From a virus, in the IMG/VR virus record IMGVR_UViG_3300022752_000030, positions 1 to 64,000 of that record: DNA of 64,000 nt. One strand, 5' to 3'. Under the pieces are notes generated by a model. The model was not told where the DNA came from. It saw only the letters and a list, made by a program, of their open reading frames with translations, and did not search any database. Shown here in pieces: positions 8,613 to 60,057 of this stretch (the first letter of the stretch is position 1; each line of letters opens with the position of its first letter). The translations under genes and the position numbers were made by a program.

Positions 8613-9086
8613 CTAATCGGTATTCCCGTAATTCCAAATTTCATTTTTATATTCTTCTGACCAATAATCATAATATTTTGTTTTCTTTAGTTTTTCTCTC
8701 GCATCAATTAATTTATCTTTTGGTTGAGCTAGTATTACAGGAAACTTTTGGTTACCAGTATTCAAACCATTTATAAATCCAGGATCGTCCGGATGATCTT
8801 TTAAGAAAATTACATTCTCCATTTTTTTCTGGAGTTTTTTTATTATACGCAATAAATCATCATTTGTCAAATTTTTTTCATTATTGAAAAATATAACAAT
8901 CTCATAGTCTTGTAGTGTTTCAATATATCTCATTATATAGGTTTCTGGTTCATATTGACCGATGTATGACCAGAACACTTTTTTGTCCTCTAAGGCCTTC
9001 TTTGCAAACGGACAAATCGAAAATCCTCCAAGTTCATTTCTTTTTTCGGATATTCTATTGACCCATTCAATTATATTTTTTTCCAA
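8613..9086 (-). CDS. hypothetical protein with CPFA motif
   Basis: 157 residues. N-terminal WVNR...GGFSICPFAKKAL resembles the W-x-CPFAK start of DUF1415-like proteins; the C-terminal half contains DHPDDPGFINGLNTG and PVILAQPK. Similar proteins occur in aquatic T4-like phages near primase. The start overlaps the primase gene by 16 bases. No biochemical role can be assigned. Confidence 0.6.
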   Translation of the reverse strand: MEKNIIEWVNRISEKRNELGGFSICPFAKKALEDKKVFWSYIGQYEPETYIMRYIETLQDYEIVIFFNNEKNLTNDDLLRIIKKLQKKMENVIFLKDHPDDPGFINGLNTGNQKFPVILAQPKDKLIDAREKLKKTKYYDYWSEEYKNEIWNYGNTD

Positions 9087-42934: not shown

Positions 42935-42963
42935 ATTATATAGTATTTTTTTTACTATGTCAA
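42935..42963 (-). promoter_or_regulatory. perfect-consensus sigma70 promoter inside the tRNA cluster
   Basis: Minus strand TTGACA (42958-42963), 17 bp spacer with an A8 tract, TATAAT (42935-42940). The start point would fall just before tRNA-Gly(GCC), so this promoter drives Gly, Thr, Gly, Pro and Met tRNAs and the 53-aa gene. Confidence 0.9.
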
Positions 42964-47238: not shown

Positions 47239-47266
47239 ATTGTACACGAATTAAAATGATTGTCAA
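47239..47266 (-). promoter_or_regulatory. sigma70 promoter driving the second tRNA cluster
   Basis: Minus strand -35 TTGACA (47261-47266), 16 bp, -10 TACAAT (47239-47244), upstream of tRNA-Glu. A 21-bp element identical to the one at 2375-2395 lies 4 bp upstream of the -35. Confidence 0.82.
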
Positions 47267-48079: not shown

Positions 48080-48457
48080 TTATTGAATTTTTGTTCCTAA
48101 TTTCGCATCCCGATAAATGGTGGTGGTATGAATTAGTTCGGGTCTAAAGTATTCTTTTAATATATCAGTAACAACACTTTCGTCATATTCTTTACACGAA
48201 AAAACATCCAGATATAAGTCACCAGTATTATCCAAAAAATGACCCATAATATTTGAAGTTTCAATTAGTTGAATGACGGTCCATCCTGCTTTGTCTGTAC
48301 CATCAGCAAAATGAACAAGCTGAGGTTCACCGTAGGGTACCATATCAATTCTTTTAACTAAATCTTTTGTAAAATTTTTAATGTACAAAGAATCTTGTGC
48401 CTTATATCGATCACAATTTTTAGCATCTAACATCAGATGTTTTCCCCAATGCATCAT
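48080..48457 (-). CDS. speD: S-adenosylmethionine decarboxylase-like (SpeD family), active site altered
   Basis: 125 residues, the size of short bacterial SpeD. Start MHWGKHLMLDAKNCD and core DLYLDVFSCKEYDESVV match the family, including the later Cys. Bacterial SpeD self-cleaves at Glu-Ser in ESHxSIHTW; here the site reads ETSNIMGHFL, with Thr after Glu and the following His displaced. Pyruvoyl formation may therefore use another residue or be lost. Overlaps the dCMP deaminase gene by four bases. Confidence 0.7.
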   Translation of the reverse strand: MMHWGKHLMLDAKNCDRYKAQDSLYIKNFTKDLVKRIDMVPYGEPQLVHFADGTDKAGWTVIQLIETSNIMGHFLDNTGDLYLDVFSCKEYDESVVTDILKEYFRPELIHTTTIYRDAKLGTKIQ

Positions 48458-48945
48458 ATCTTTTTAACCTCAATTCCTGCTTTTTCTAGAAAATTTAGAC
48501 CACTTTCGTCCCTATAAGAATTTCTATAATAGAGAGAGTTAATACCTGATTGATAAACTAATTTTGCACATTCAATGCAAGGTGCATGTGTAACAAACAT
48601 TATCGAGTCTTGACCAGATTCATTACTTTTTGCTAACTTTGCAATTGCATTACTTTCAGCATGAATCACTTCTGGTTTTGTTTTGGTACCGTACCAAGCA
48701 TTTTTATTTGGACACCACTTCCAACCTCTCATGACAAAATTATTAGAACCTAATTCTGGATTATCTTTCGTCCATTCAATAGTTTCACAATCATTGTCCC
48801 AACCAGCTGGCGTTCCATTATAACCAATAGAAATGATACGATTATCTTTTACGATAACAGCACCAACTTTTAATCTTTTAGCTGAAGATAACTTACCGAA
48901 CCTTTCGGCAGTATCCATGAACGCTTCAATCCATTTTTGTTTCAT
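48454..48945 (-). CDS. cd: deoxycytidylate (dCMP) deaminase
   Basis: 163 residues from the second Met (48945), preceded by GGAAG; an ATG at 48951 is an alternative. Zinc and catalytic residues: VIHAESNAI (HAE) and APCIECA (PCxxC). It converts dCMP to dUMP for thymidylate synthesis, complementing NrdAB. The start overlaps the stop of the 59-aa gene upstream (TAATG). Confidence 0.92.
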   Translation of the reverse strand: MKQKWIEAFMDTAERFGKLSSAKRLKVGAVIVKDNRIISIGYNGTPAGWDNDCETIEWTKDNPELGSNNFVMRGWKWCPNKNAWYGTKTKPEVIHAESNAIAKLAKSNESGQDSIMFVTHAPCIECAKLVYQSGINSLYYRNSYRDESGLNFLEKAGIEVKKI

Positions 48946-49124
48946 TACCATCTTCCATCATCAATGATGAGTCGAATCCAAAAAGGACCAAAATAAATTG
49001 CATTTTCAAAAACATAGCAATCAGAAGGAAATTCTTTCGTCCTATCTCTAATCCATTCGAATCTCCAGTGAAAAGGATTTAACACAAATCCAATCCAAAG
49101 TCCGGAATATTTTAACCATTTCAT
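48945..49124 (-). CDS. small Trp-rich protein, 59 aa
   Basis: Reads MKWLKYSGLWIGFVLNPFHW and ends RLIIDDGRW, with seven Trp. GGAGTT precedes the ATG by a normal distance. TAA overlaps the next ATG and the upstream gene overlaps its start by four bases. Hydrophobic and aromatic, possibly membrane-associated. Small proteins of this look recur in T4-like phages; function unknown. Confidence 0.65.
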   Translation of the reverse strand: MKWLKYSGLWIGFVLNPFHWRFEWIRDRTKEFPSDCYVFENAIYFGPFWIRLIIDDGRW

Positions 49125-49309
49125 TTGATGAACTCCAAACTATCTTTTCGGATATAACGAACTGGAGTTTTATTTTGTGGTGTTTTTATGACAGGAAGAA
49201 AAGCAACACCATCAATCTCTTTGATTTCCCAATTCGAATAGGTAAAATATTCTTCCTGATTCGTGCGGACACGAACTTTTTTTAATACAGGTACTTTAAT
49301 GTTTTTCAT
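49121..49309 (-). CDS. small basic beta-rich protein from a near-leaderless mRNA
   Basis: 62 residues starting MKNIKVPVLKKVRVRTNQEE at 49309. No SD is present: the -10 TATAAT (49319-49324) ends only ten bases before the ATG, so the transcript would begin within a few bases of AUG. A longer reading from an upstream TTG would lie inside the promoter and was rejected. Sequence suggests a small SH3/KOW-like strand bundle; no family recognised. Confidence 0.65.
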   Translation of the reverse strand: MKNIKVPVLKKVRVRTNQEEYFTYSNWEIKEIDGVAFLPVIKTPQNKTPVRYIRKDSLEFIK

Positions 49310-49318
49310 AATGAATAA

Positions 49319-49347
49319 ATTATACAAAAAAGAAAGGGCTCTGTCAA
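49319..49347 (-). promoter_or_regulatory. consensus promoter with its -35 in a terminator loop
   Basis: Minus strand TTGACA (49342-49347), 17 bp, TATAAT (49319-49324). The six -35 bases are exactly the loop of the AGGGCTC/GAGCCCT hairpin at 49335-49354. Confidence 0.88.
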
Positions 49348-49354
49348 GAGCCCT
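49335..49354 (-). terminator. intrinsic terminator of the hsp20 transcript, overlapping a promoter
   Basis: Perfect 7-bp stem AGGGCTC/GAGCCCT, 6-nt loop TTGACA, followed on the minus strand by TTTCTTTTTT. It ends transcripts from hsp20 and at the same time supplies the -35 of the next promoter. Confidence 0.85.
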
Positions 49355-49358
49355 ATTT

Positions 49359-49436
49359 TTATTTACCTTTGTTTTGGAATTTTTCAGGATTATTTAACTG
49401 ATCCCATTCCTCATCGGATACAGGCCACCAGTTCAT
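49359..49436 (-). CDS. micro-protein downstream of hsp20, 25 aa
   Basis: Reads MNWWPVSDEEWDQLNNPEKF. Its ATG overlaps the hsp20 TGA (ATGA), so translation would be coupled, and it ends just before the terminator. Three Trp in 11 residues. Very short, so possibly chance; coupling is the only support. Confidence 0.4.
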   Translation of the reverse strand: MNWWPVSDEEWDQLNNPEKFQNKGK

Positions 49437-50000: not shown

Positions 50001-50008
50001 TATTTATA
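50001..50008 (-). promoter_or_regulatory. late promoter TATAAATA upstream of hsp20 leader
   Basis: Perfect 8/8 T4 late core followed by ATTATATTC on the minus strand, just after the regA stop codon. It would transcribe the structured leader and hsp20. Confidence 0.7.
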
Positions 50009-59517: not shown

Positions 59518-60057
59518 TTACTCCATGAATTTTTCAACACCCTTTGGTATCTTTAATAATTTCTTTTCTTCTTTTTTTGCATTTCTGCTCACTTCATAAG
59601 TCTCAATAAATTCTGCAATATTATCATACATTTCAAATTGTTTTGACGTACCATCTTCAAAGTCCATCATTTCAAATTCGTCTAAAACACCAACCTGTTC
59701 AGTAGCTTTGTATTTAATGTACAGTTGTTTCTTCTCTTTTTGAATTCTTCTAAGAAAAGCAAAGTAAATAATTTGAGTAAAATAAGCAAAAGGATTCTTT
59801 GATATTGTAGGATTAAAGTTATCAAAATACATCAAACAATTTTCAATACCATCAGAAATCATTTCATCTCTGTACGTATAATTAATAAAGTTTGGTTTAT
59901 GTGATAAACCTTCAGCTATTTTCATCCAACACTCACCAATATAATCCGGAATCTTCGGTGGAGGTAAATTTGATTTTTCAGCTTCAGAACAAGCGGCCTT
60001 GTACTCAACCAAAGCTTTTAAAAAATCTTCATTATTAATGTAATTTCGTTTATTCAT
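59518..60057 (-). CDS. 55: late-transcription sigma factor (gp55)
   Basis: 179 residues (T4 gp55 185). YRDEMISDGIENCLMYFDNF and PFAYFTQIIYFAFLRRIQKEKKQ are the sigma region 2 core-binding and -10-recognition helices. gp55 directs host RNA polymerase to TATAAATA late promoters with the gp45 clamp; several such sites are present in this window. Confidence 0.93.
   Translation of the reverse strand: MNKRNYINNEDFLKALVEYKAACSEAEKSNLPPPKIPDYIGECWMKIAEGLSHKPNFINYTYRDEMISDGIENCLMYFDNFNPTISKNPFAYFTQIIYFAFLRRIQKEKKQLYIKYKATEQVGVLDEFEMMDFEDGTSKQFEMYDNIAEFIETYEVSRNAKKEEKKLLKIPKGVEKFME

Follow-up and report, generated by a model that had tools for sequence, protein, structure and literature searches.

In a T4-like phage fragment (a 111-kb contig with gp45, gp44, gp62, regA and hsp20 close by), we found a 36-bp stretch on the minus strand, 49354-49319, composed of a hairpin, a T-rich tract and a -10 hexamer. 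With a probability of roughly 0.78, we consider it a terminator and a promoter nested in each other at the border of two transcription units, with a near-leaderless message expected downstream. The minus-strand order is ggtaaaTAAaaatAGGGCTC, TTGACA, GAGCCCT, TTCTTTTTTG, TATAAT, ttattcatt and ATG, and TTTCTTTTTT is located directly 3' of the hairpin AGGGCTC-TTGACA-GAGCCCT. Positions refer to the window, the whole stretch of DNA analysed (64,000 nt), and the features are collected in Table 1.

Table 1. Positions of the nested element, of its flanking genes and of the predicted late-transcription features in the window.
Feature	Position	Strand	Remarks
Late sigma factor gp55 homologue (matched region)	59707..60045	-	tblastn with RB49 gp55, 38% identity, E 9e-19
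Predicted T4-type late promoter TATAAATA of hsp20	50001..50008	-	exact octamer, conserved upstream of hsp20
hsp20, 148 aa, PF00011	49433..49879	-	Shine-Dalgarno AAGGAG
25-aa ORF MNWWPVSDEEWDQLNNPEKFQNKGK	49359..49436	-	ATG 49436; stop TAA 49361-49359
Terminator hairpin (predicted) AGGGCTC-TTGACA-GAGCCCT	49335..49354	-	8 bp with T-A closing pair; from folding and covarying stem in relatives
-35 hexamer TTGACA	49342..49347	-	in hairpin loop; loop position kept in relatives
T-rich tract TTCTTTTTTG	49325..49334	-	putative terminator U-tract and part of promoter spacer
-10 hexamer TATAAT	49319..49324	-	17-bp spacer to -35
Discriminator and predicted start point (~49312)	49310..49318	-	predicted leader ~3 nt (AUU), no Shine-Dalgarno
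62-aa ORF downstream of promoter	49121..49309	-	no Pfam match; family conserved in phage contigs
59-aa ORF, dCMP deaminase (PF00383), AdoMet decarboxylase (PF02675)	48080..49124	-	overlapping ORFs

The hairpin showed a folding energy of -12.8 kcal/mol with a z score of -3.6, and none of 200 shuffles was equally good. In the minimum-energy fold, the outermost T and A of TTGACA form a pair, which gives 8 bp and a UGAC tetraloop; the version with 7 bp and a 6-nt loop is the identical hairpin in a more conservative reading. On the plus strand, 49335-49354 likewise scores as a terminator. The sequence-only reading had described this hairpin with a T-rich tract behind it (49354-49325), a loop hexamer equal to a perfect -35 and TATAAT 17 bp further on, and all of this was borne out, the promoter matching at 12 of 12 positions.

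TTGACA-17-TATAAT was the sole 12/12 promoter-like site between 46000 and 53000 (7 kb). The AT-rich genome yields many promoter-like sites (29 found in the same region against 27.6 expected from shuffles), as would suit a real terminator with a promoter match by chance, or the reverse. Since the weaker sites are no commoner than in shuffles, the weight rests on the perfect match and its overlap with the hairpin. Through a joint search for a -35 enclosed in a hairpin with 7 or more base pairs, we found one site in the 111-kb fragment and a mean of 0.0 over four shuffles.

The motif TTGACA-N15-19-TATAAT occurred four times in the 64,000-nt window, compared with 0.28 expected, and at least two of the three other sites resemble coding sequence; the perfect TTGACA/TATAAT matches at 8842 and 58153 were set aside, as they appear to be coding sequence. 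Two strong sigma70-like promoters were also observed on the minus strand within the tRNA clusters, one of 12/12 at 42935-42963 between tRNA-Leu and tRNA-Gly and one of 11/12 at 47239-47266 between tRNA-Ser and tRNA-Glu.

Related phages were sampled by the downstream protein (alignment A1) and not by the DNA of the element. The protein search gave 301 loci, and the best 80 of the 301, together with the window, were reduced to 45 distinct -35 regions; some A1 rows seeding the search came from a DNA scan, and the 80 loci were selected on their protein scores. A -35 of the TTGAC(A) type was enclosed by a stem of 7 bp or more in 34 of the 45 distinct upstream regions. The nested hexamer was mostly TTGACA, and TTGACT, TTGACG, TTGCCA and TTGATT were also found, while the stems varied between relatives (GGGGCTC/GAGCCC, GAGGTTG/CAACCTC, GGGGGCC/GGCCCCC and AGGGACTT/AAGTCCCT). 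Native arms paired over a mean of 8.1 bp, compared with 5.3 bp for chimeric stems with arms taken from different phages; the native mean was reached in 0 of 1000 permutations, in which relatedness was not fully controlled. The spacing between -35 and -10 was 16-18 bp in the relatives, almost always 17. From these alignments we conclude that the nested arrangement is not due to chance.

Ten of the 45 regions showed no nesting (e.g. L207, L212, L215, L227 and L241); in them, a GC-rich hairpin closely precedes the -35 of a -35/-10-like pair. One further region had no clear promoter at the locus. Because of these ten separate hairpins, we regard nesting as favoured and not required. In L207, L214, L215 and L241, the hairpin GGTGGGGTGCAATGCCCCACC ends just 5' of TTGACA instead of surrounding it, and the ATG is 9 nt past the -10.

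The IMG/VR scans were carried out with fixed arms, complementary or, as control, non-complementary. Among the matches listed, a T-tract lay in the spacer at 106 of the 166 distinct complementary-arm sites, compared with 17 of the 83 whose arms were non-complementary (Fisher p 6e-11, with no correction for relatedness). Also among the matches listed, pairing extended past the fixed arms, individual positions showing several types of base pair in excess of permutation; no such extension in excess of permutation was found in the control sites listed. Nesting is conserved, with compensating changes of the stem, in dozens of related environmental phages. The conservation at the locus and the scan results disfavour a chance match, as do the 12/12 promoter, its fixed spacing in relatives whose stems differ and the co-occurrence of T-tracts with complementary arms around TTGACA among the matches listed; we regard a chance match as extremely improbable.

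Promoter-like blocks of another kind, GGCCCTTGACAGGGCCCAAAATTATNTGNTATAATTTTGGCGC, were observed in other phage contigs (L416, L422, L405, L432 and L396), repeated and several per contig. They have a palindromic -35 without T-tract and a AAAATTAT/ATAATTTT symmetry around the -10, and further hairpins often follow.

Scanning phage genomes for TTGACA-loop hairpins with a spaced -10 had been proposed from the letters of the window, and nesting was indeed found in cultured cyanophages as well as in IMG/VR contigs. Nested elements with a T-tract were revealed in S-PM2, Syn1, Bellamy, P-SSM4 and S-CAM3, and P-SSM2 contained one nested element with a very long GU-containing stem; shuffled genomes of the cultured phages gave 0-0.5 nested sites each, whatever their kind. 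Nesting was located before hli03 in Bellamy, S-SM2, S-BM3, S-CAM3, Syn1 and S-PM2, at the regA 3' ends of S-CAM3 and P-SSM2, before nrdC in P-SSM4, and, in a cultured cyanophage, between psbD and the next gene. In the hli03 elements, TTGAC is constant and the stems differ between phages. Melnitz contained one nested site without a clear T-tract, and none was seen genome-wide in HTVC008M and S-CRM01, nor downstream of hsp20 in HTVC008M, P-SSM4 and S-SM1. After hsp20 of Methylophilales phage Melnitz-2 (L161) we observed TTGACATTACCCTAGAAATAGGGTATTATATAC, in which a hairpin separates the -35 from a -10-like sequence; this is a third arrangement for hsp20.

The 62-aa protein was not found in the cultured phages searched by tblastn, so there is no isolate of exactly this locus among them. 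It was also not found in genome contigs searched for a host, and the DNA of the element gave only partial matches with cultured phages, none over more than 80% of the query.

The PeSL (promoter-early stem-loop) cassettes of T4-type phages reportedly consist of an early promoter with a stem-loop. Like them, the element combines a sigma70-type early promoter with a putative stem-loop terminator, and it too lies between co-directional genes in a T4-like phage. However, at all 11 RB49 promoters with a terminator hairpin, about 16-34 nt separate the end of the hairpin from the -35 downstream, so that hairpin and U-tract are wholly upstream, whereas here the -35 is in the hairpin loop; a nested site with T-tract was looked for in RB49 and none was seen. 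PMC4503421 cites Arbiol 2010 and Comeau 2014 on these cassettes. A second difference is copy number, as the cassettes reportedly occur as several copies per genome that act as recombination points, and one nested copy was found in the 111-kb contig, itself a fragment. A third is that the gene here begins no more than about 3 nt from the predicted start point.

If the element served mainly as a short block of repeated homology through which phages exchange genes, its promoter and terminator being passengers, this would agree with both ingredients being present between genes and with similar nested elements at several different cyanophage genes; but the single nested copy in the 111-kb fragment, the usually unchanged flanking genes and the stems that diverge and covary instead of remaining identical make such a recombination cassette quite unlikely. 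By its sequence, the element has the components of a PeSL cassette, arranged differently and present once, and we regard it as a nested form of a kind already known. A -35 inside a terminator loop was not found described in the limited library of literature searched, which is weak evidence of absence.

Upstream of the hairpin, hsp20 had been named as the gene whose transcription stops there. It does belong to the upstream unit, but not alone, since a conserved 25-aa ORF is located between hsp20 and the hairpin; the sequence-only reading overlooked this ORF and the late promoter of hsp20. The ORF begins on the stop codon of hsp20 (ATGA overlap) and runs to 4 nt from the hairpin, and it is conserved in relatives (MNNWWPVSDEEWERLNYPEKF...), where M(N)NWWPVSDEEWERLNYPEKF-like sequences are found.

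The exact octamer TATAAATA upstream of hsp20, together with the encoded gp55 homologue, resembles the T4 late promoter system, although the site at hsp20 is predicted and is invoked solely to account for the transcript that would end at the hairpin. In 47 of 63 distinct upstream regions of the fetched relatives, the octamer was found no more than 160 nt before hsp20, and it is rare in the 111-kb contig (seven copies, six on the minus strand). Its presence and its conservation in most relatives suggest that hsp20 belongs to the late genes of this clade. Considering this late promoter and the gp55 homologue, the element probably marks the border between a late unit and a sigma70 unit; the split between late and early timing is what we infer from the promoter motifs.

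Downstream, the ATG at 49309 is 9 nt past the -10. That it lacks a Shine-Dalgarno sequence, as proposed from the letters alone, agrees with the absence of any GGAG-like motif between the -10 and the ATG; the start point expected within a few bases of this ATG also held as a prediction, with a leader of about 3 nt. The Shine-Dalgarno sequence is strong for hsp20. An ATG 6-10 nt past the -10 was found in 41 of the 45 distinct relatives, which, with a start assumed about 7 nt past the -10, gives predicted leaders of about 0-4 nt, and the short distance was kept in eight of the ten non-nested relatives. The ATG of hli03 is about 20-30 nt from the -10; therefore the leaderless feature would be a trait of the hsp20 locus and not of nesting itself. 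These comparisons support, as a selected arrangement, a -35 placed in a terminator loop, a -10 spaced by 17 bp and a near-leaderless start.

The cI message of lambda from PRM is an example of a leaderless mRNA. The present locus is similar in its start codon, at or a few nt from the predicted start point, and in having no Shine-Dalgarno sequence; it differs in that the start point is predicted and the upstream boundary is a putative terminator. Because the 62-aa ORF, the 59-aa ORF and the genes for dCMP deaminase and AdoMet decarboxylase overlap, they presumably share one transcription unit.

In the mechanism that we propose, late transcription of hsp20 and the 25-aa ORF would start from a gp55-type promoter some 120 bp before hsp20, and the late transcript would form the RNA hairpin with its U-tract and stop there. 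The identical DNA would be a consensus sigma70 promoter, with the loop hexamer as -35, the U-tract in the spacer and TATAAT following. Initiation at about 49312 would give an mRNA beginning about 3 nt before the AUG at 49309, and the 62-aa protein would be translated from this nearly leaderless message, with the overlapping dCMP deaminase and AdoMet decarboxylase genes next. The hairpin and the -35 are compatible and can share bases, because the former acts in RNA and the latter in double-stranded DNA.

A terminator between co-directional genes might also be a regulated attenuator; the downstream message would then come chiefly from readthrough out of hsp20, with a weak or accessory promoter. 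This we judge very unlikely, as the promoter is a perfect consensus and its 17-bp spacing is kept in relatives. For the nested terminator and promoter, the terminating polymerase would cover the promoter until its departure, so some interference, or alternatively local re-initiation, would be expected. In vitro, RNA polymerase diffuses on DNA after termination and re-initiates at nearby promoters (PMC6978380). At this element, a polymerase releasing its transcript at the U-tract might stay over the promoter, hold or acquire sigma70 and restart, so that termination feeds initiation, but we find such a relay unlikely.

In the element, one short DNA sequence would have to satisfy two demands at once, forming a hairpin in RNA and serving as a -35 box in DNA; the stem can covary, and the loop stays nearly fixed. 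It offers a simple sequence rule for locating unit borders in marine and freshwater T4-like phages, mostly without transcript data, and a testable set of predicted near-leaderless phage genes. Such elements may also provide compact natural terminator-promoter parts, usable for studying re-initiation after termination.
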